A model generated the notes under the pieces. The model was given only the letters and a program-made list of their open reading frames with translations. It ran no database searches and was not told the DNA's origin. From Streptomyces sp. XD-27 (GTDB lineage: Bacteria; Actinomycetota; Actinomycetes; Streptomycetales; Streptomycetaceae), in the NCBI RefSeq assembly GCF_030553055.1, contig NZ_CP130713.1:1178001-1242000 (forward strand): DNA of 64,000 nt, in the 5' to 3' direction. A program made the translations under genes and the position numbers. How positions within the stretch are numbered: the first letter of the stretch is position 1; each line of letters opens with the position of its first letter. Shown here one piece after another: positions 2 to 37,568 of this stretch.

Positions 2-574
2 GTGGCGATGATGGCGCTCGGCCCCTTCCTGCGGGGGCGTGGGACTGTGCTCACCGGTGAAGGGGCGGATACGGCAACCATGGGCGGTCACCCGCCGGCA
101 CGCTCCCAGGAGGAATTCGACAACGGCATCCTCGCGGAAGCGGGCAAATACTGGACCGACCGCCGGCCGGCCGTCAACATCGGCGAAGTCGTGGACTCTG
201 GAGCACCGGCCCGTTGGTGCCGCACCATGCAGCATTCGGGCCTGCTCGCCATCACCCGCCGGATCGACTACCGCGCGATGTGGCGCACGGACAGTGCGGG
301 CCGCACGTGGGACAAAGTGCCCTTGCGGATGGCCGCGGCAGCACTCGGCGTTCCAGAGGATGTGGCATGGCGACCCAAGTCCCCTATCCAGAGGTCCGCC
401 GGAATCCTCGACGCCATGCTCGCCGCCGCCTGCGAGCAGGCGCGTGGACTTCCCGGTACGGAGTGGGGTCCGCGTCCCAGTGCGGGTTGGGCCCCGCGTA
501 CGAGCCAGGAGGCATCGGAAGTAGCTGCCATCCAGTTCTGGCTGGCTGCTCACCTCACGTCCGCTGCCCAGTGA
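2..574 (+). CDS. Asparagine-synthase-like protein, C-terminal part (5' end outside window)
   Basis: Open from the left edge, so the N-terminus is missing. The visible 190 residues start just before an LTGEGAD motif, the ATP-pyrophosphatase signature of asparagine synthase domains (the complete AsnB at 15681-17534 has LTGEGADELFGG). Here the next residues are TATMGG instead of ELFGG, so this is a divergent family member. Further on, a DKVPLRMAA...RPKSPIQR stretch resembles the end of the synthase domain. Such enzymes form amides using ATP, often in secondary metabolism. It converges with the nicotianamine-synthase-like gene, overlapping it by 20 bases. The substrate cannot be inferred. Confidence 0.6.
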   Translation: MAMMALGPFLRGRGTVLTGEGADTATMGGHPPARSQEEFDNGILAEAGKYWTDRRPAVNIGEVVDSGAPARWCRTMQHSGLLAITRRIDYRAMWRTDSAGRTWDKVPLRMAAAALGVPEDVAWRPKSPIQRSAGILDAMLAAACEQARGLPGTEWGPRPSAGWAPRTSQEASEVAAIQFWLAAHLTSAAQ

Positions 575-1466
575 TACGGGAGGGTTGGGCCAGCAGGACG
601 GAGTTGACTCCTCCCGTCTCTGCGCGCATTTCCCGCAGCACCCTGAAGCCCTCAAGGTCGGCCGATTCGACGGGAAGACGCAGAGCTGTCTGCAAACCAC
701 GCGCACCCCGCGCCGAAAGGACTGCGTCCGGACGCAGGACAGGGGCGAGAGCGCGGGCGATGGCGCGCTTTTCTTCCACCTCGACACCGGCCAGTGAAAC
801 GAGGACAACGAGGTCGGTGTCGTTCGTACCGGCCAGGCGGTCAATGGCGACTGCGTCCGCCTGCGTGGTGCTCACCATGGAATCGTGACCGAGTGCTTTG
901 ACGACTTCGGTGCCGAGCGCGCATGCCTCGGCATTCCGGTCCACTTGGAGGACACGCAGACCGTAGCGGGCAAGGAGAATGCCGGTCAGCGGCAAGGGTC
1001 CGGAGCCAAGGACAATGGCGACCTTGGGACGTATGGCACCGACTGTGACGGCTCCGGCCAGCTCAGCTCGGGCGAGCTTGCGGTAGTACGTCAGGTAGGG
1101 GAATCCGCCCAGTTCATCCCAGGGGTCGCGGGCGGCGATGATGCGATGTGCCCAGAGCCGTTCCAGCTCGGCCTCACTTCTCGCGTACAAGGAGCGCATC
1201 CAGCGGAAAAGCCGGTCGGCGTGAGGGCTCTTCAGATCTGCCGCGGAAATCTTGCCCTCCATTGAGCTGCAGTATCGGACTAACGCGCCAAATGCCGACT
1301 CCATATCAGGCGAGGGCCGCATCCCGGTGGCAGCAAGGCGCTCGCCCACAGCCCGGAGTGCGACGAAAACGCCGGCTGCATCACTCGTTCGCCGGACCGG
1401 CTCGTGACCGTCAGGGGAGATACCCACACCAGCATGGTCACCCGACAGGAGCGCGGCGGCAAGCAC
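555..1466 (-). CDS. Nicotianamine synthase-like enzyme
   Basis: About 303 residues. A Rossmann-like core carries GSGPLPLT (about residue 153), the SAM-binding signature of nicotianamine synthases, preceded by DPWDEL..FPYLTYYRKL, also typical of that family. These enzymes transfer 3-amino-3-carboxypropyl groups from SAM to make nicotianamine or bacterial opine-metallophore precursors. The first 30 or so residues are poorly conserved, so the true start may be internal; the region matching the family begins near residue 50. No opine dehydrogenase or metal-chelate transporter is seen nearby. Family assignment is good, product unknown. Confidence 0.75.
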   Translation of the reverse strand: MLAAALLSGDHAGVGISPDGHEPVRRTSDAAGVFVALRAVGERLAATGMRPSPDMESAFGALVRYCSSMEGKISAADLKSPHADRLFRWMRSLYARSEAELERLWAHRIIAARDPWDELGGFPYLTYYRKLARAELAGAVTVGAIRPKVAIVLGSGPLPLTGILLARYGLRVLQVDRNAEACALGTEVVKALGHDSMVSTTQADAVAIDRLAGTNDTDLVVLVSLAGVEVEEKRAIARALAPVLRPDAVLSARGARGLQTALRLPVESADLEGFRVLREMRAETGGVNSVLLAQPSRITGQRT

Positions 1467-20846: not shown

Positions 20847-21920
20847 TCATCCCCGCAGTACCCACCACTCTTCCACGCCCGCGACCGGCGTCCGATCCGT
20901 GCACGTCGGCGCGGTCCCCACCACCGCCGAGGACCCCGAATACCGGGCGGAGCCGATGCCCCAGTCCAGGTTTCCCCGAATCCACCCGTCCAGGTCCCGT
21001 ACCCACGACGCCACCGTCGGCGACGCCCCGGCCAGGGTCTCTTCCCGCAGGTCCATGTAGCGCACCATCACCCGGTCCCGCAGCGCGACGGTCTCCGCCA
21101 AGCCCCCGCCCTCTCTGGCCACCGCGTCCACCAAGTTCAATCCGTCACCACAGCGCTGCGATTCCTTCGCATGCGAGATCAGATCGTTGTCATAGCCCAC
21201 CAAGGCCGCGCACATCTCCGACAGCGCCCGAACCGCCGGTACTTCCAGCTCCGGTAATGGGGCCTCGTAGCCGTTGGTCACGTCCAGCATGTTCACGCAC
21301 ACCGGCATCGACCCGTTGGAGATACGAGCCACCAGATACGCGCCCAAGGAGGGAAACGTCCCCCGCACGCGATGCCCTGCCTCCCACACCTGATAGGCCA
21401 GGTAATCCCGCAGCGTCGTAATCCAGCGCCCCACCTGCACTCCTGAGCCCAGACCGGCCAACCGCTCCCGCAAGTCGGCCAAAGCGTTCATGAACGGCTC
21501 GTCGGCTCGCGCCACTCCCGTCTGTGCCGTCCGCATCAGGTCGGCGATCAGTACCCCCAATCCCGCCGGGTCATGGCTCAGTTGCCCCTCGTCGCAGAAC
21601 ACGTCGTCGAACGCGAACAGCCACATCAGCATGTCCGCCCCGAGCTGAGCCTGCACGGCTGTCCCCCACGGCGCGATGCGGGCTGCCAACTCGCCGGCGC
21701 CAATGGCGGAGAACCGGGCCGCTTCCTCCTCATCGCGGGCCAGCCCCCACTTCGCGGCCCACCGGTCCGACTCGGCCTGGAGCACTTCGACCGCCGGATG
21801 CATCCGCGACGGCAACGGACACCACAAGGCCACCACCGGCCGCTCCCGCGGACGCAGCGAGGCCGCCAGATCCATGGCGCTGCCCCCGATCACGCCCCCG
21901 GAGAACCGACGTCCAGACAT
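20847..21920 (-). CDS. Class I terpene synthase (cyclase)
   Basis: 357 residues from the ATG at 21920 (GAGAGGGG upstream). FAFDDVFCDE holds the Asp-rich Mg motif D105-D106-x3-D110; YDNDLISHAKE gives the NSE triad N245, S249, E253; GSARYS near the C-terminus is the conserved RY pair. Size and motifs fit bacterial sesquiterpene or monoterpene cyclases working on prenyl diphosphates. No partner P450 or prenyl synthase nearby, so it may act alone to make a volatile. Product not predictable by eye. Confidence 0.88.
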   Translation of the reverse strand: MSGRRFSGGVIGGSAMDLAASLRPRERPVVALWCPLPSRMHPAVEVLQAESDRWAAKWGLARDEEEAARFSAIGAGELAARIAPWGTAVQAQLGADMLMWLFAFDDVFCDEGQLSHDPAGLGVLIADLMRTAQTGVARADEPFMNALADLRERLAGLGSGVQVGRWITTLRDYLAYQVWEAGHRVRGTFPSLGAYLVARISNGSMPVCVNMLDVTNGYEAPLPELEVPAVRALSEMCAALVGYDNDLISHAKESQRCGDGLNLVDAVAREGGGLAETVALRDRVMVRYMDLREETLAGASPTVASWVRDLDGWIRGNLDWGIGSARYSGSSAVVGTAPTCTDRTPVAGVEEWWVLRG

Positions 21921-22049
21921 CGCGCCCCTCTCTTCGCGCACCTTGGAGTACGCGACCTGCCCGGGGCACCTGCCGGTGTCCGAGAAGGAGATCCAAACCA
22001 CCAGGACCAGTGACGAAGGCACGGACGCGCCCGCCCAACCCACCCCGTC

Positions 22050-22899
22050 CATGGGGCTGGTCTGCCCGTCTGCCGCTGCACGCGCTGAAGCCGTCCTTGA
22101 GCTGCTGCAAGTCCGGTTGCGCCGGCACACCTCGGCGGCCCCCACCGTAACCCTCCACGACAAGGTCTACGGGCTAGGCCGGGAACGGCACGCCGAGCGG
22201 CGGCGGATACTCGTCGCCGCGGTTGAGCACTTCCCCCCTCCCCTCCCCGGCCGGTACGTGGCGGACCGGCAGAGGGTGCTACACGAGCTCGGGCAGTACA
22301 CCCGGAGGCCCGGGACCCGGCGGCCCCGAGGCATCCGGCGCCTGGCGTTTTCAGCCAGCCGCGGCAGCGTGGCAGCAGTTCGGGGTCCTGGATCAGCTGG
22401 TGGTCCGCCGCTATCTATCCGGTCACACGGGGAGCACTGCCCTGCTCGATGTGCCCTACTGGAAGCCGATCACATCGAGGCCGAACGTCATGTAATCCTG
22501 GCCGAGTCGGCCATCGGCGATGCGTGGTCGCTGGTGCAGCCGCCGACCGGCGGGGAGACCGCGAGCGCCTCGCTGCGGCTGATGTGTCACCTCCGGGCCG
22601 CACGCTACCGGCCCTTCGTCCGCTTCGGCGACGACGTGGCCGCCCGTGATCTGCGGGCCGGGCCCGAGGAAGCTCCGAATGGCTCCGACCGCCCGCAGCA
22701 GTGACGCCCACCGGGCGCCTGGACATCATCTCCGGCGTCGGGTGTCTTCGCACCCTCGTAGTCTGCGCCGCTGTACTTGCAGGCGGGCGCGCTGACCGTG
22801 GAAGCGGTCGCCCTGGAGGCCGGCAAGACAGCCGTGGCCAATGAGTTGGTCATCGTGCCCGCAGCAGTGGGCCCAGAGCGGGCGATGGTGGCTTCTTGA
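22050..22899 (+). other. Decayed coding DNA of unknown origin
   Basis: Short protein-like pieces occur in changing frames: VYGLGRERHAERRRILVAA (about 22165), WQQFGVLDQLVVRRYLSGH (about 22370), IGDAWSLVQPPTGGETASA (about 22515), and QAGALTVEAVALEAGKTAVA ending at a stop at 22899. None is a complete gene and I cannot name the families. Probably one or more frameshifted genes upstream of the terpene synthase. Confidence 0.3.
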
Positions 22900-29979: not shown

Positions 29980-30690
29980 TCACTGCGTCCGGAGGTGCCG
30001 TACGAGTTGTTCGAACGCGGCCCAGGCCGCGCCTGACGTGCCGTCGCCGAGCGGGTAGTAGAGGCCGGGGCGGGCCGCGGGTCCCAGTTCGGTCGGCTGG
30101 GTGGACTGTGGTGGGCGGCGGGCGTGGGTGGGGCCGATCTCGTGGACGTCCTCGGGGCCCAGGGCGAAGCCCACGGGCACCGGTGGTGGTTCGAAGTGCG
30201 CGGGCGCGGTCAGGTCCCGGCGGCCGGAGCGTACTTGGGCGAGCATCGAGACCAGGCGGTGTTCGCGTACGAGACGGTCGGCGAGGGCGGGGAGGTCCTC
30301 CAGGGGCAGATCCTCGTCCGGGGCGTAGCCGACGGCCAGGGTCAGGGTCTCCTCCACGCCGCCCGTGGTGCGCGAGACGGTCAGGGTGGCGATGGCGGGC
30401 CGGGACCGGGGGTCGCCGACGACGACCGTCCAGGTGGGGTCGGGCGCGCGGTCGCGGGCGACGTCGGTGAGCTGGCGGCGGGACCACGGGAGGGACGCGG
30501 GTTCGGCCGTGCCCCAGCCGGCGGGTGGCGCGCCGGTCAGCGTCCGGTACGCCTCCTCCAGCGCACCGGCGAGCACGAGCTGGTCGTCGGCCGGATGGCG
30601 GGTGTGGAGGGAGAGCAGGAGCTGGCGCTCGCCGGTGGTCGCGAACTCCTTGAAGCGCTCCGCCACCGGGTTGTCCGCCGAGGCGTTCCC
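29980..30690 (-). pseudogene. C-terminal fragment of DUF6177-family protein
   Basis: About 235 residues: NPVAERFKEFATTGERQLLL, SLHTRHPADDQLVLAGALEE, LTGAPPAGWGTAEPASLPWS and YYPLGDGTSGAAWAAFEQL. These match, from memory, the Streptomyces family DUF6177. The N-terminal half is missing; at about 30690 it joins the middle of a P-type ATPase gene in another frame. Chimera produced by deletion. Confidence 0.6.
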
Positions 30691-31959
30691 GGGCGGCGCT
30701 CGCGACGGCGTTGGCGATGGGGTGCTCGCTGGCGTCCTCCAGACCCCCGGCCAGCCGCAGCACCTCCTCCGCGTCCTCACCTTCGGCCGGTACGACGTCG
30801 ATCAGGCGCATCTTCCCCTCGGTGATGGTGCCGGTCTTGTCCAGTACGACGGTGTCGATCCGCCGTGTCGACTCCAGCGCCTCCGGGCCACGGTCAGCAG
30901 CCCGAGCTGCGCCCCGCGCCCGGTGCCGACCATCAGCGCGGTGGGCGTGGCGAGCCCGAGCGCGCATGGGCATGCGATGATCACCACGGCGATGGCCACA
31001 GCGAGTGCGGTCGCCGCCGCAGCTCCGGTCAGCATCCACACGCCGAACGTGCCCATCGCCAGGGCGATGACGACCGGGACGAACACCGCCGAGACCCGGT
31101 CCGCCAGCCGCTGCACCGCGGCCTTGCCGGTCTGTGCCCGCTCCACCAGCGCGGCGATCTGCGCCAGCTTGGTGTCCGCCCCGACCCGCGTCGCGCGTAC
31201 GACCAGCCGTCCGTGGCTGTTGACGGTGGCGCCGGTGACCGGCGATCCCGGCTCGGCCTCAACCGGCACGCTCTCCCCGGTCAGCAGCGACTCGTCGACC
31301 GCCGAAGCGCCCTCGACGACCTGTCCGTCCGTGGCGATCTTCTCCCCGGGCCGCACCACGAACAGATCCCCGACCGTCAACTCCTCGACCGGAATACGCA
31401 CCTCGACTCCGCCGCGCAGCACACCGACGTCCTTGGCGCCCAGGTCCATCAGCGCCCGGATCGCCTCCCCGGCCCGCCGCTTGGCCCGGTCCTCGAAGAA
31501 CCGCCCGGCCAGCAGGAACGCCGTCAGGACGACCGCGATCTCCAGATACAGGTGCTCCCCGCCCACGGCGAGGGTGCCCACGCTCCACAGATACGCGGCC
31601 GCGACGCCCAACGACACCAGGGTGTCCATCGTCGCCGAGCCGTGCCGCAGATTCAGCGCCGCAGCCCGGTGGAACGGCCACGCGTCGACGACCTCGGCTT
31701 CCTCCGCCTCCCCTGGGCCGCTCCCGACCACCTCGGCGCCGTAACCGATGGCCTCGACAGCGGCGACCAACTCCGCCACGTCGACCGCCGGGTCCTCGCG
31801 GGTCACATGCGCTGTCGCCGTCGCCAGGTTCACCGTGGCGCTCACCCCAGGCAGCTTGCCCAGCTTCCGCTCGACCCGCGCCACGCAGGAGGCACAGGTC
31901 ATCCCGGTGATCGCCAGCTCGATGGTGTGCCCGACGCCGGCTTGCGCGGTGGTGGCCAT
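30691..31959 (-). pseudogene. Copper-type P1B ATPase, internally deleted, frameshifted and truncated
   Basis: ATG at 31959 after GAGAGGAG. The metal-binding GMTCASC domain is intact, but the region holding the first two membrane helices is absent: [20 protein letters not shown] skips about 55 residues relative to the copA copy at 34911. The actuator LLTGESVP and the [10 protein letters not shown] channel motif follow. After GRGAQLGLL one base is missing; in the next frame [19 protein letters not shown] and ASEHPIANAV continue, then the gene ends by fusion to a DUF6177 fragment near 30690. ATP-binding and last helices are lost. Lies 20 bp behind the cyclodipeptide synthase gene. Confidence 0.8.
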
Positions 31960-31979: not shown

Positions 31980-32711
31980 TCAGTTTCGTACGGGAACGGG
32001 AGCCGGTGATGGTCCGGCCGGAGCCACCACGGCGAAGCCCTGCCCAGCGGCGGGCCGCCATCCGAACTCACCGGCATACAGGCGACGCAGCACATCGGGC
32101 GGCTGGTGATAGCAGAAGACCGACGCCTCGGCGCCGACGATGGACGAGGAGTCGAGGAACATCGGGAGCTCGGCGAGGAAGTAGCGCACAGCATGCTCGA
32201 CCTGCTCCTCGTCCGACTGCTGACCGTCGGGCAGCTTCCCGGCCAGCACCCAGCCGGTGGCCTTGTGGCACGCATCCCGGAAGCCCAGGTCCTGGGCGTA
32301 CCGCTTCAGCCCGTGCTCATGGAGTCGGCCGAAGGCCGCGTTGCCCTCGAGTTCGGGCCAGCCCAGCACGCGCGCCCCGGGATCGGTCACCCCGAGCGAA
32401 CCCAGCGCCGTGGCGATCTTGTTGCGGGTGTACTGGCCCTGCCTGCGCGCCTTCCACGCGGCCTTCTCCGGCGAACAGTCCAAAGCCTCGAAGGTGAAGG
32501 CACTCGGCGCGTCCGGCACGAAGAAATCCACGCGCTCGAAGCGCCCCAGCCCCCACGCCGCAAGCTCGCGGATCCGGGCCGTGGAGAAGTAGCTGTTGAA
32601 CGGACTTATCCCGAAGCAGGCATGCTCGCCCCGCTCCACCGCCGCCGCGCACGCGTCGCTCAACAGCTCCACCGTCATCGCAGGACAGCCGTCCCCTTGA
32701 TCGGTACTCAT
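31980..32711 (-). CDS. tRNA-dependent cyclodipeptide synthase
   Basis: 243 residues. Uses two aminoacyl-tRNAs to make a diketopiperazine. [14 protein letters not shown] contains Ser36, the acyl-enzyme nucleophile (AlbC Ser37), and Asn39; [10 protein letters not shown] gives Tyr177 and Glu181; FCYHQPP gives Tyr201-His202. These match AlbC Tyr178/Glu182/Tyr202 with a constant offset of one, and the N..Y-H set places it in the NYH subfamily. [18 protein letters not shown] is the basic helix that contacts tRNA. GFGW-like end [15 protein letters not shown] mirrors AlbC. No tailoring oxidase or P450 nearby. The start ATG sits at the predicted transcription start, so the mRNA may be leaderless; P-type ATPase pseudogene follows in the same direction. 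Confidence 0.9.
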
Positions 32712-32717
32712 GCCCGC

Positions 32718-32750
32718 ACGCTAAAACCTTGTCCTTAGGGCAATGTCAAG
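32718..32750 (-). promoter_or_regulatory. MerR-type promoter and operator upstream of the cyclodipeptide synthase
   Basis: On the minus strand TTGACA (32749-32744) and TAGCGT (32723-32718) are separated by 20 bases, longer than the normal 17 and typical of promoters that MerR proteins activate by DNA distortion. A dyad CTTGnCnTT-n5-AAnGnCAAG covers 32728-32750 within the spacer. The -10 ends 6-7 bases before the ATG at 32711. Spacing and dyad are seen; binding is inferred. Confidence 0.65.
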
Positions 32751-32788
32751 CCGACACCGGAGACGCACCCCGCGAGCGGAGACCCGCA

Positions 32789-33196
32789 ATGCTCACCGTC
32801 GGCCGCATCGCCGCCCAGACCGGACTCAGCCCCAAGGCCGTCCGCCTCTACGAGGCCAACGGCCTCATCGACCCGCCCGAACGCACCGCCCCCGGCTACC
32901 GCACCTACACCGCTCAGGCCGTCCTCGTCCTCGGTTTCATCCGCCAGGCCCAGGCCCTCGGCCTCAGCCTCAAAGAGATCAAGGAAATCCTCGACCTCCA
33001 GCGCCGCGGCGAGCAGCCCTGCGGATTCGTCACCGATCTCCTCGACCAGCACCTCGCCGACATCGACCGGCGCATCGCTGACCTCCAAGCCCTGCGCGTC
33101 ACCCTTCAGCGGACCCGCGCCCAGGCCGGCCGAGCCGCCGACCGCGGGGACGATGCCGTGGTGTGCCGGATCATCGAAAGCGCCGCTTCAGAATGA
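32789..33196 (+). CDS. MerR-family transcriptional regulator, metal type
   Basis: 135 residues from the ATG at 32789. LTVGRIAAQTGLSPKAVRLY is the winged-helix DNA-binding start; LGLSLKEIKEILDLQRRGE leads into the dimer helix. Cys78 in EQPCGFV aligns with MerR Cys82/ZntR Cys79, present in sensors of divalent ions and absent in CueR; Cys126 near the C-terminus may be a second ligand, but the usual middle Cys pair is missing. Divergent from the cyclodipeptide synthase and likely its regulator as well as its own. Confidence 0.8.
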   Translation: MLTVGRIAAQTGLSPKAVRLYEANGLIDPPERTAPGYRTYTAQAVLVLGFIRQAQALGLSLKEIKEILDLQRRGEQPCGFVTDLLDQHLADIDRRIADLQALRVTLQRTRAQAGRAADRGDDAVVCRIIESAASE

Positions 33197-33287
33197 ACTG
33201 CAAGGATTTCATGGGCACGCCGGTCACGAGCCAGCCTGGATCCCCCGCCGCGGCGTGGGCACCGACCGCGCCCGGCCTCGCCCTCGG

Positions 33288-34289
33288 TCAGTGCTGGTGG
33301 CCACCCTCCGCGGTCTCGGCTGAGGTCGCTTCCCTCTTCTCCTCGCCGTGCGGGGCGAGGGCCGCCTTCTCCTCGCCGTCTGGGGCGGTAGCCGGGAGGG
33401 TGAAGGCCGCAGTGCGGACCGTCCCGTTGTGCTTGAAGTCCAGGAAGAGGCGGTACGTACCGGAGCTGGACGCGGTGGCCGTGAAGGAGATCGCCGGGCC
33501 TGGCTTCGTGACGCCGTCGCCCGGGTGGCCGCCCGGGTGGACGTGGAGGTAAGCCAGGTCGCCCGAGCGCAGGGCCACCAGGTGGCCGTACGCCTCCAAG
33601 TAAGGCTGGAGGTCGGTGACCTCGCGGCCGTCCTTGGCGACCTTGAGGGTCAGCTCGCGGGCCTTTCCGGGGGTCAGGTCACCTTCGAGGTTGACGGTGT
33701 AGCCGTCCACTGTGGTGGTGCGGGTGGCTTTGGGCAGCGCTGCCGGTTGGTACGTACCCGACACGGCCAGGTCCGCGCCCAGGGTGAGGTTCCCGGCGCC
33801 CTTGGCGGCGGGGGTGAAGTCGGTGAACAGCCGGTAGTCGCCCGCCTTGGGCAGCTTGACGTCGGTGCGCCAGGTGCCGTCGGCCGCGCGGGCCGGGTGT
33901 AGGTGCTGGTAGGTGGTCAGATCGCGGCCGGCGAGGATGAGATGCAGCTCCTTGCCGTGGGCCTTCCGGTACGCGGTGACCTTGCGCCCGGCGGCGTCGC
34001 GGACCGAGAAGCGGACTTCGGTGCTGCGGTCTGACGCGATGCGCGGGGTGTCCAGGTCCAGGGTGTATCCGCTCTCGGAGATCTGCAGGCCGCCCGCCGC
34101 GTGCCCGGCGTCCGCCGCCGTCTCCCCCTTCTTCCCCGTCCTCTCCTCCTTGTCGTGTGCGCCGTGGTGGGCGTGGGCGGCGGGCTCAGGGTCCGCGACC
34201 GGATCCATCGCCGCCCCCGCTCCGTAGGCGACACCGAACGCCGCGGCGAGTGCGGCGACGAACGCTCCGGTCTTCACAGCTGTGTTCAT
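33288..34289 (-). CDS. Secreted His-rich protein of the copper locus
   Basis: 333 residues from the ATG at 34289 (AAGGGA upstream). Signal peptide AFVAALAAAFGVAYGAGAA, then a His-rich stretch (AAHAHHGAHDKEE), two beta-sandwich-like repeats with YQHLHPARAADGTW (about residue 155) and YLHVHPGGHPGDG (about residue 285), and a His-containing end EGGHQH. The paired HLHP/HVHP motifs suggest metal binding outside the membrane. Transcribed divergently from copZ with a CsoR-like box over its promoter. Often adjacent to copZ-copA in Streptomyces (from memory); exact role unknown. Confidence 0.75.
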   Translation of the reverse strand: MNTAVKTGAFVAALAAAFGVAYGAGAAMDPVADPEPAAHAHHGAHDKEERTGKKGETAADAGHAAGGLQISESGYTLDLDTPRIASDRSTEVRFSVRDAAGRKVTAYRKAHGKELHLILAGRDLTTYQHLHPARAADGTWRTDVKLPKAGDYRLFTDFTPAAKGAGNLTLGADLAVSGTYQPAALPKATRTTTVDGYTVNLEGDLTPGKARELTLKVAKDGREVTDLQPYLEAYGHLVALRSGDLAYLHVHPGGHPGDGVTKPGPAISFTATASSSGTYRLFLDFKHNGTVRTAAFTLPATAPDGEEKAALAPHGEEKREATSAETAEGGHQH

Positions 34290-34341
34290 GAGGCGGTCCC
34301 TTCGCAATGGCCGCTTTCGATCGGCGGCTCCACGAACCTCG

Positions 34342-34369
34342 AAGATACCCCCCAGGGGTATGAAGTCAA
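34342..34369 (-). promoter_or_regulatory. Promoter with CsoR-like operator (secreted protein gene)
   Basis: Minus-strand TTGACT (34369-34364), 16-base spacer, TATCTT (34347-34342). The palindrome ATACCCCCCAGGGGTAT (34345-34361) fills the spacer and matches the known CsoR box shape of TACCCCnnnGGGGTA. Copper would relieve repression. Confidence 0.7.
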
Positions 34370-34382
34370 GCCCGGGAAAGTG

Positions 34383-34447
34383 TTGCACCGAGATACGGGG
34401 CGGGGGTATACATGACCACATCGCCGAGCGATACCCCCACGGGGTAT
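34383..34447 (+). promoter_or_regulatory. copZ promoter with two CsoR-like boxes
   Basis: TTGCAC (34383-34388), 18-base spacer, TATACA (34407-34412). An imperfect box ATACGGGGCGGGGGTAT (34393-34409) overlaps the spacer and -10, and a better one, ATACCCCCACGGGGTAT (34431-34447), lies in the 5' leader before the GGAGG of copZ. Confidence 0.7.
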
Positions 34448-34874: not shown

Positions 34875-34910
34875 ACCCACCCACCCTCCCCTCAAGCCCG
34901 AGGAGCAGTG

Positions 34911-37178
34911 ATGACCACCACGGTTACCGAGACGGCCGAGGTCGAACTCGCCATCGGCGGGATGACCTGCGCCTCGTGCGCCGCCCGGATCGAGAGGAAG
35001 CTCAACCGCATGGACGGGGTCGAGGCCACCGTCAACTACGCCACCGAGAAGGCCAAGGTCCACTACGCCGGTGACATCAGCGTCGAGGACCTGATCGCCA
35101 CCGTGGAGGCCACTGGCTATACCGCCGCCCCGCCTGCCCCCGCCCGTACGCGGACCCCCGACGCAGGCGGCACGCAGGCCCCGGCGGCCGAGGAGGCCGA
35201 CGAGCTGCGGCCGCTGCGGCAGCGGCTGATCACCGCCGTGATGCTCGCTGTCCCGGTGATCGTTCTGGCCATGGTCCCGGCCTGGCAGTTCGAGTACTGG
35301 CAGTGGCTGTCCCTCACCCTCACCGCGCCGGTGGTGACGTACGCAGCCTGGCCGTTCCACCGCGCCGCCCTCACCAACGCCCGGCACGGCGCGGCCACCA
35401 TGGACACCCTCATCTCGGTGGGCACCAGCGCCGCGTTCCTGTGGTCCCTGTGGGCCCTCTTCCTCGGCACCGCCGGAACCCCCGGCATGACCCACGGCTT
35501 CGAGCTGACCATCAACCGCACCGACGGCGCCGGAAACATCTACCTGGAGGCCGCCGCCGGAGTCACCGCCTTCATCCTCGCCGGCCGCTACTTCGAAGCC
35601 CGCTCCAAGCGCAAAGCGGGCGCCGCCCTCAAGGCCCTGCTGGAGCTGGGCGCCAAGGAGGTCACCGTCCTGCGGGAGGGGCGCGAGGAGCTGATCCGCA
35701 CCGAGCAGCTGGTGGTCGGCGACCGGTTCGTGGTCCGGCCCGGCGAGAAGATCGCCACCGACGGCGTCATCGTCGAGGGTGCCTCCGCCGTGGACGCCTC
35801 CATGCTCACCGGTGAGTCCGTGCCGGTGGAGGTCGCGGTCGGCGACAGCGTCACCGGTGCCACGCTCAACGCCGGCGGCCGCCTGGTCGTCGAGGCCACC
35901 CGGGTCGGCGCCGACACCCAGCTGGCGCGGATGGCCAAGCTGGTGGAGGACGCGCAGAACGGCAAGGCCGCCGCCCAGAGGCTCGCCGACCGGATCTCCG
36001 CCGTCTTCGTCCCCGTCGTCATCACCCTGGCGCTGGCCACCCTGGGCTTCTGGCTCGGCAACGGCGCCGGTCTCACCGCTGCGTTCACCGCGGCCGTGGC
36101 CGTACTGATCATCGCCTGCCCTTGCGCCCTGGGCCTGGCCACCCCTACCGCCCTCATGGTCGGCACCGGGCGCGGCGCCCAGCTCGGCATCCTCATCAAG
36201 GGCCCCGAGGTCCTGGAGACCACCCGCACCATCGACACGATCGTCCTGGACAAGACCGGCACCGTCACCACCGGCCAGATGACCCTGCTCGCCATCCACA
36301 CCACCGACGACGTCACCGAGGCGGAGGTGCTGCGACTGGCCGGCGCGCTGGAGCACGCCTCCGAGCACCCCATCGCCCAGGCCGTCGCCACCGGCGCCGC
36401 CCAGCGGATCGGCGCACTCCCCACCCCGGAGGACTTCGCGAACATCCCCGGCCTCGGCGTCCAGGGCGTCGTCGACGGACACGCGGTGCTCGTGGGACGC
36501 GAGAAGCTGTTGAGCGAGTGGGCGATGACGTTGCCCGCCGCGCTGGCTGGGGCCAAAGCGGAGGCCGAGGCGGCCGGACGCACCGCCATCGCGGTCGCCT
36601 GGGACGGCCAGGCCCGCGCCGTCCTGGAGGTCGCCGACGCGGTCAAGGACACCAGCCCCGAGGCCATCCGGCGGCTCCGCGCCCTGGGCCTGACCCCGAT
36701 CCTGCTCACTGGCGACAACCAGGCCGTGGCCGAGTCCGTCGCCCGCGAGGTCGGCATCGACGAGGTCCTCGCCGAGGTCATGCCGCAGGACAAGGTCGAC
36801 GTCGTCAAGAAGCTCCAGGCCGAGGGGCGTTCGGTGGCCATGGTCGGCGACGGCGTCAACGACGCCGCCGCGCTCGCCCAGGCCGACCTGGGACTCGCCA
36901 TGGGCACCGGCACCGACGCCGCCATCGAAGCCGGCGACCTCACCCTGGTCCGGGGCGACCTGCGCGCAGCCGCCGACGCCATACGCCTGGCCCGCCGCAC
37001 CCTGGCCACCATCAAGTCCAACCTCTTCTGGGCCTTCGCCTACAACATCGCCGCCCTCCCCTTGGCCGCGTCCGGCCTCCTCAACCCGATGATCGCCGGA
37101 GCCGCCATGGCCTTCTCCTCCGTCTTCGTCGTCGGCAACAGCCTCCGCCTCCGCCGCTTCCAGCCCACCACCGGCTGA
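34911..37178 (+). CDS. copA: Copper-translocating P1B-type ATPase
   Basis: 755 residues from the ATG at 34911 (GAGGAG upstream). Exports Cu(I). N-terminal metal domain GMTCASC (Cys20, Cys23), eight membrane helices, actuator motif MLTGESVP, channel motif [10 protein letters not shown] (about residue 403), phosphorylation site DKTGT (about 447), SEHP and [10 protein letters not shown] (about 646). The intact counterpart of the damaged ATPase at 30691-31959. A long open frame on the opposite strand is a codon-bias shadow. Confidence 0.92.
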
Positions 37179-37231: not shown

Positions 37232-37286
37232 TTCACTGGCACACCGCGCTCATTGGCATCCCTGCACCCACGAGATGAGGACTCCC

Positions 37287-37568
37287 ATGGCCGGTTACGA
37301 GGACCACAAGGACAAGATCCGTCGGCGCCTGCGCCGAATCGAAGGGCAGGTACGCGGACTTCAGCGCATGGTCGAGGAGGACACGTACTGCATCGACGTC
37401 CTCACCCAGATATCAGCCACCACCGCCGCTCTGCAGTCCTGCTCCCTCACCCTCCTTGAAGAACACCTCAACTGCTGCGTCTCCGAGGCCCTCACCCAGG
37501 GCGGCGACGAGGCACGGTCGAAGGTGAGTGAGGCGACCCAGGCCATCGCACGCCTGGTCCGCGCCTGA
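37287..37568 (+). CDS. csoR: Copper-sensing repressor CsoR
   Basis: 93 residues from the ATG at 37287 (GAGG seven bases upstream; an in-frame ATG at 37275 adds four residues). All-helical DUF156 protein: RRLRRIEGQVRGLQRMVEED then Cys35 in TYCID, His60 and Cys64 in EEHLNCC. These correspond to Cys36-His61-Cys65 of the Mycobacterium tuberculosis protein, the Cu(I) ligands. Represses the ATACCCC..GGGGTAT promoters upstream until copper binds. Confidence 0.9.
   Translation: MAGYEDHKDKIRRRLRRIEGQVRGLQRMVEEDTYCIDVLTQISATTAALQSCSLTLLEEHLNCCVSEALTQGGDEARSKVSEATQAIARLVRA

Follow-up and report, generated by a model that had tools for sequence, protein, structure and literature searches.

A cyclodipeptide synthase gene behind a MerR-type promoter in copper-type gene neighborhoods of Streptomyces

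Pumps, chaperones, and oxidases are the familiar components of copper-resistance operons, and operons of the CueR/CopA type combine a MerR-family sensor, a dyad in a long-spacer promoter, and a P1B-1 ATPase as the target. MerR-type promoters, with spacers of 19 to 20 nt, are activated by the metal-bound regulator. CueR also controls the fluopsin C operon of Pseudomonas aeruginosa, which relies on other enzymes (FlcB and partners) and contains no cyclodipeptide synthase (CDPS). A CDPS product engaged in Fe3+ chemistry is known from the pulcherriminic acid locus of Bacillus, which comprises the CDPS YvmC, CypX, and the MarR-type regulator YvmB, according to PMC11610984 and PMC7731078. In the part of the open-licence literature covered by our search, no copper or MerR-controlled operon with a CDPS was described; the words "copper," "metal," and "MerR" do not occur in the review PMC11610984, nor do "cyclodipeptide" and "MerR" in the main text of PMC9195940, the paper on plasmid pI.

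The locus described here resembles CueR/CopA efflux operons in its MerR-family sensor, its long-spacer dyad, and the P1B-1 ATPase as a target, but a CDPS gene lies between the promoter and the ATPase gene, and the sensor has no equivalent of Cys112. The CDPS is similar to the NYH-type enzymes AlbC and Rv2275 in family, predicted fold, and catalytic residues, yet it differs from them in its pocket motifs, its metal-sensor promoter, and the absence of an adjoining tailoring gene. In contrast to the Bacillus pulcherriminic acid locus, which involves iron, needs CypX, and has a MarR-type regulator, the present locus is associated with copper-type genes and a MerR regulator and has no adjoining oxidase gene. 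The parts are of known kinds; the combination is new. As this combination is also found in other Streptomyces and on plasmids for metal resistance, it suggests a small molecule triggered by copper. A conserved biosynthetic enzyme within copper-resistance operons that draws on aminoacyl-tRNA would extend metal tolerance by a chemical branch, offer a first hint as to what a group of untailored cyclodipeptides is for, and indicate a metal-triggered route to activate an otherwise silent product.

The synthase gene, its regulator, and their shared promoter

The window, i.e., the whole stretch of 64,000 nucleotides that was analyzed, spans bases 1,178,001 to 1,242,000 of a 7.55-Mb genome in one contig, which has four CDPS genes. 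An intact CDPS gene of the NYH subfamily at positions 31980 to 32711 (minus strand) is the first gene behind a MerR-type promoter. It encodes a protein of 243 residues that matched PF16715 with 223.6 bits (cut-off, 27) over 218 of the 220 profile positions and TIGR04539 with 261 bits (cut-off for CDPS, 45). Ser37, Asn40, Tyr178, Glu182, Tyr202, and His203 (AlbC numbering), the catalytic residues of CDPSs, are all present as SNYEYH. Among five AlphaFold2 models built on 11 sequences, the best reached a pLDDT of 74.4 and a pTM of 0.73, the other four scoring 51.8 to 59.5. When this best model was compared with the PDB, ranks 1 to 48 were all CDPSs, with TM-scores by query length of up to 0.79. 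Judged from its sequence, the enzyme would make an untailored cyclodipeptide from aminoacyl-tRNA.

Divergent from the CDPS gene, at positions 32789 to 33196 (plus strand), lies a gene for a MerR-family regulator of 135 residues (PF09278 and PF13411) with two invariant cysteines, Cys78 and a C-terminal cysteine, each conserved in 24 of 24 aligned rows. A preliminary description had reported a complete NYH-type CDPS divergent from a MerR regulator, and the profile matches, the catalytic residues, and the MerR domains bear this out. The best solved match of the regulator was CueR. Its score with the CueR equivalog model TIGR02044 was 96.7 bits, below the cut-off of 147.4, and the CueR, CadR/PbrR, ZntR, and MerR models all gave similar scores (97 to 84 bits) below their cut-offs. 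Compared to CueR, with its characteristic residues Cys112, Cys120, and Ser77, the window regulator has an equivalent of Cys120, none of Cys112, and a cysteine near the place of Ser77. Cys78 stands where MerR sensors of divalent metals carry a cysteine.

The promoter shared by the two genes had been read as TTGACA and TAGCGT separated by 20 nt, with a dyad, and this reading was confirmed. It occupies positions 32718 to 32749 (minus strand), with the −35 box TTGACA at 32749 to 32744, the −10 box TAGCGT at 32723 to 32718, and the CDPS ATG 6 nt downstream, at 32711. Since only six bases separate the −10 box and the start codon, the mRNA would start at or next to the ATG, and the CDPS transcript is probably leaderless. 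A generic sigma-70 scan of positions 32400 to 33400 found nothing, which a 20-nt spacer would lead one to expect. An imperfect dyad at positions 32727 to 32745, the likely operator, is symmetric at 14 of 19 positions in the window copy and differs at 2 of 19 from the clade consensus ACCTTGCCCTAAGGGCAAGGT, a 21-bp palindrome centered on its middle base and symmetric at 20 of 21 positions. Across the whole 7.55-Mb genome, the window dyad is the sole site with three or fewer mismatches, and no larger regulon of the CDPS-adjacent MerR was found.

The adjoining ATPase gene and nearby copper genes

A P-type ATPase gene had also been placed next to the synthase gene. Its ATG, at 31959, does lie exactly 20 nt past the CDPS stop codon, but the gene is broken in this strain, which the preliminary description had not noticed. 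An N-terminal piece of a copper-type P1B ATPase with HMA and E1-E2 matches (30802 to 31959, minus strand) lacks 52 residues present in intact relatives, which would correspond to the first membrane helices, and loses its frame near 30890. A second piece in another frame (30668 to 30886, minus strand) corresponds to residues 408 to 480 of a 730-residue homologue. Similarity to the intact homologue ends at about residue 480 of 730, and directly behind the truncated gene follows a DUF6177 fragment (29980 to 30780, minus strand; PF19674, 293 bits, profile positions 95 to 329 of 330), the boundary between the two being the junction of a rearrangement. Given the 52-residue gap, the frameshift, and the truncation, a working ATPase beside the CDPS in the window strain was rejected. 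In a related locus, L079, the ATPase is intact (730 residues) and has an HMA domain and the P1B-1 motifs CPC, N6YN4P (TM7), and MxxSSxxV (TM8), which define P1B-1 (Cu+) ATPases.

Orthologues of the window CDPS are 73 to 84% identical. The dN/dS values of the gene ranged from 0.16 to 0.52 in all 10 pairs by NG86, the top values belonging to one very close pair, and from 0.04 to 0.24 by YN00 in 8 of the 10 pairs, and they stay low in pairs that do not involve the window strain. The broken ATPase piece has equally low values (NG86, 0.20 to 0.24; YN00, 0.06 to 0.07). The decay of the ATPase gene in the window strain is therefore recent, and for the same reason, pairs involving the window are no proof of present-day selection on the CDPS there.

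Roughly 1.7 kb past the MerR gene lies another, separate set of copper genes. It consists of an intact gene for a copper P1B-1 ATPase, CopA (34908 to 37178, plus strand; TIGR01525, 591 bits; TIGR01511, 523 bits), which carries the CPC, N6YN4P, and MxxSSxxV motifs, and a gene for a CsoR/RicR-like copper repressor (37275 to 37568, plus strand; PF02583, 99.8 bits; NF052430, 137 bits, below the cut-off of 175). Before it lies a gene for a predicted exported protein (33288 to 34421, minus strand) with a weak YtkA-like match below the gathering score. A protein search found 13 CopA matches in the window genome, in part fragments of a single gene, and with just 13 matches, chance adjacency of the CDPS to a CopA-type gene is unlikely.

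Recurrence, loss, and relatives of the synthase gene

The lack of a conserved neighborhood in other genomes had been named beforehand as one half of what would refute the proposal, and the proposal withstood this half of the test, as the order MerR, CDPS, ATPase was found in 13 further loci. This type (a) order is thus present in 14 loci, i.e., the window, 8 of 13 named genome loci, 3 plasmid records, and genomes G285 and G269; the ATPase gene is broken in two of them, the window and G269, and in the latter the CDPS frame is open. Genomes G085 and G289, which are apparently those of L038 and L039 (identical match figures), were left out of the 14. The 13 named loci, which hold the closest CDPSs, are all from Streptomyces, and the other five of them have a type (b) order, CDPS, MerRb, CopA, in which MerRb is only 39 to 40% identical. 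The recurrent type (a) order exceeds chance, yet the loci share descent and are not independent. Five of 392 genomes of the genus have a CDPS with at least 76% identity, and all five adjoin a type (a) MerR gene.

All 14 type (a) promoters retain the 20-nt spacer and the dyad; their consensus is TTGACCTTGCCCTAAGGGCAAGGTTTTAGCGT, with 0 to 4 mismatches in 32 positions per locus. Variation is absent or very low at most dyad positions and greater in the bases further upstream. The distance from the −10 box to the CDPS ATG is 6 nt in 13 of the loci and 7 nt in L037. In type (b) loci, which include a GMTCGHC-type HMA gene, the dyad before the CDPS gene is degenerate. The CDPS promoters of L041, L042, L043, and L045, all of type (b) and with a degenerate dyad, still have TAGCGT at a short distance from the ATG. 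In Streptomyces sp. TRM68367, CDPS loci of both types are present (L045 and L047).

Of 23 plasmid records with any match, three hold type (a) loci with CDPSs 82 to 84% identical: S. mirabilis P16B-1 pI, S. liliifuscus, and Streptomyces sp. F12 pFRL6. All three loci sit in metal islands of linear plasmids, each with ArsR, HMA, TauE/SafE, CcdA, BlaI/CopY-M56, and CopC genes nearby; the islands also hold mercury, arsenic, or cation-diffusion genes, and L079 additionally has a DsbD-cupredoxin protein. As had been described, no tailoring enzyme is encoded beside the window CDPS, and no exporter or tailoring gene is common to all type (a) loci looked at, in which neighbors were grouped by a crude gene caller. 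A class I methyltransferase occurs in some islands. A search of the window genome for the plasmid-type enzyme, run without a positive control, returned nothing similar, and an obligate tailoring role of this methyltransferase is thus unsupported for the window strain.

The CDPS-adjacent MerR gene was found in 10 copies in 9 of the 392 genomes, with an intact CDPS gene beside five of them. The other five copies comprise one with a CDPS remnant (L084), one with a probable deletion scar (L083), and three without a trace (L085 to L087). In L083 and L085 to L087, in which the MerR and ATPase genes occur without an intact CDPS gene, the ATPase gene is preceded by the same promoter type. As such copies exist, MerR and the ATPase form a self-standing unit. 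The scar in L083 matches the end of the window CDPS gene and the following spacer at 27 of 32 bases (score, 17, versus at most 15 in 1,000 shuffles); when other CDPS ends were aligned with it, 8 of 9 comparisons were not above their own shuffles. The CDPS can be lost with the ATPase retained, and vice versa.

Among the 392 genus genomes, 19 CDPS matches had at least 46% identity: 5 of type (a), 3 of a BlaI-M56 type, and 11 in a LysR-CDPS-permease operon. With 11 of 19 matches in the latter, the idea that every related CDPS is found near copper genes was rejected. In L051, L053, L056, and L082, the gene for a CDPS 47 to 51% identical to the window protein precedes a BlaI/CopY-type regulator gene and an M56 peptidase gene. 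Copper genes lie near two of them (CopC in L082 and CcdA in L056); around L051 and L053, no CopC, CcdA, or ATPase gene was found, and the copper link there is the BlaI-M56 pair alone. Genome G605, from another family, has one CDPS gene beside CcdA and another convergent with BlaI-M56. In G468, also from another family, a CDPS 51% identical to the L079 protein has neither copper markers nor LysR nearby.

In the LysR-type loci (L054, at G000:C1:7223000-7238000; L050, L052, L055, and L057 to L063), a LysR gene lies on one side of the CDPS gene and a purine/cytosine-type permease gene on the other in 11 of 11 cases, and none of the copper markers used was found in the 11. Those annotated with Pfam add a rhodanese, a thioredoxin, a subtilase, and a pyridine-nucleotide disulphide oxidoreductase (thioredoxin-reductase-like flavoprotein), and in view of these sulphur and redox genes, the product might be a thiol. 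Loci of distant CDPSs, L021 to L034 (flanks of about 1.5 kb) and L064 to L067 (about 7 kb), contained, apart from the CDPS, none of the 18 marker genes used, L064 and L065 being the same places as L021 and L022. Another distant CDPS (L091, in G210; 39% identity) lies 1.2 kb from a weak MerR-like match. In the CDPS tree, groups a and b together (support, 99/98), c (100/99), d (100/99), and the LysR group (100/99) were each recovered. Some long branches are joined, and as the tree leaves the branching order among groups unresolved, the number of separate recruitments is uncertain.

Substrate pocket and candidate roles of the product

The pocket motifs of the window CDPS are CGFGWMFF (P1) and AWVGQPD (P2). 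Those of groups a and b, CGFGW(L/M)FF and AWVG(Q/E/R)P(D/A/E), are strongly conserved within the groups. Since P1 of the LysR group is nearly identical (CGFGMLFF in 9 of 11), this motif is not specific to copper loci. In Table 2 of PMC5816076, no row equals the motif of groups a and b or that of the window; groups a and b share 5 of 8 residues with one prolyl and one leucyl row, and the window shares 4 of 8. With the lone cysteinyl row there, VGYPSIFF, the window shares 3 of 8 residues and two G605 loci share 5 of 8, which is their best row; this cCC/cCX comparison was made on that single row. Pocket positions were mapped via alignments with AlbC and Rv2275, which place the fourth P1 residue at 118, compared to 119 in PMC5816076. 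The cysteinyl row fits the G605 loci but agrees less well with the window than the prolyl and leucyl rows do (3 of 8 versus 4 of 8). The product of the G605 branch may contain cysteine.

On balance, we consider it probable that the CDPS gene belongs to a MerR-controlled copper-efflux operon as an accessory and dispensable member and makes an untailored, copper-induced cyclodipeptide that supports copper tolerance. The MerR-family sensor would sit on the dyad inside the 20-nt spacer and become an activator upon metal binding, most likely of Cu(I). A single leaderless transcript would then carry the CDPS followed by the copper ATPase. From two tRNA-bound aminoacyl groups, the CDPS would form one unmodified cyclodipeptide, such that copper stress would give rise to a small cyclic dipeptide. 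Its purpose would most likely be to support copper tolerance, e.g., by binding or redox-buffering copper, a role favored because the CDPS gene accompanies copper-resistance genes in several arrangements. In the window strain, the ATPase has been lost, with the CDPS remaining under the MerR promoter. The metal-switched diketopiperazine suggested in the preliminary description is supported in part, in that the conserved MerR, promoter, and gene order point to metal-sensor control of the CDPS. Copper is most likely the metal sensed, given the P1B-1 motifs of the L079 ATPase and the CopC and CcdA genes in the three plasmid islands. What speaks against a copper operon that includes the CDPS is that MerR and the ATPase do without it in 5 of 10 MerR copies. 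That the dipeptide is a copper ligand is a guess, and we hold as rather doubtful the far-reaching proposal that the untailored, copper-induced cyclodipeptide is a copper ligand or redox buffer and a tRNA-dependent synthase a copper-resistance gene itself, taken up into several layouts of actinomycete metal islands, with a G605 product that may contain cysteine.

The repeated linkage is best explained by a copper ligand or redox buffer, with a signal or antibiotic in second place. In the latter case, the metal-induced cyclodipeptide would act on neighbors or development and not on copper. Cyclodipeptides built from plain aliphatic or aromatic residues bind metals weakly, and the rows most similar to the pocket of groups a and b are a prolyl and a leucyl one (5 of 8). 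No exporter or tailoring gene is shared across the type (a) loci looked at, a methyltransferase being present in some islands. Linkage with copper genes in several layouts fits a copper-tied role better, leaving a signal or antibiotic possible but unlikely. The CDPS might also be a passenger of mobile metal islands, expressed without a metal-related use, as could be expected from its patchy occurrence (5 of 392 genomes at 76% identity or more), its location on linear plasmids, its loss in L084 and probably in L083, and the degenerate type (b) dyad. This explanation is made improbable by the fixed place at the promoter, with the start codon 6 to 7 nt past the −10 box, by low dN/dS also among strains other than that of the window, and by other CDPS lineages that likewise lie beside metal-island genes. 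Since CDPSs consume aminoacyl-tRNA, the enzyme could instead slow translation under metal shock by draining one or two aminoacyl-tRNAs, with the dipeptide as a by-product; the metal-sensor promoter and the lack of a tailoring gene beside the window CDPS would suit such a brake. We know of no CDPS that acts in this way, and the strongly conserved pocket in groups a and b argues for a selected product, making this last possibility highly improbable.

Compatible with any of these explanations, the metal sensed could be Zn, Cd, Hg, Pb, or Ag and not copper. The regulator scored below the cut-off of every listed metal model and is without one C-terminal cysteine of CueR, which argues against a firm copper call. 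The CueR, CadR/PbrR, ZntR, and MerR models lie close together (97 to 84 bits, all below cut-off), Cys78 is present in 24 of 24 rows at the place where divalent-metal sensors carry a cysteine, and the plasmid islands include mercury, arsenic, or cation-diffusion genes. Another metal is nonetheless unlikely in view of the Cu+ motifs in the partner ATPase, the CopC and CcdA neighbors, the GMTCGHC-type HMA gene in type (b) loci, and CueR as the best solved match.

Two other genes of the window encode a terpene synthase (20847 to 22163, minus strand), nearest to selina-4(15),7(11)-diene synthase with 223 bits (below the cut-off of 450), and a nicotianamine synthase-like protein (555 to 1466, minus strand; PF03059, 116 bits; CntL [staphylopine] model, 22 bits versus a cut-off of 350), possibly another metallophore enzyme.
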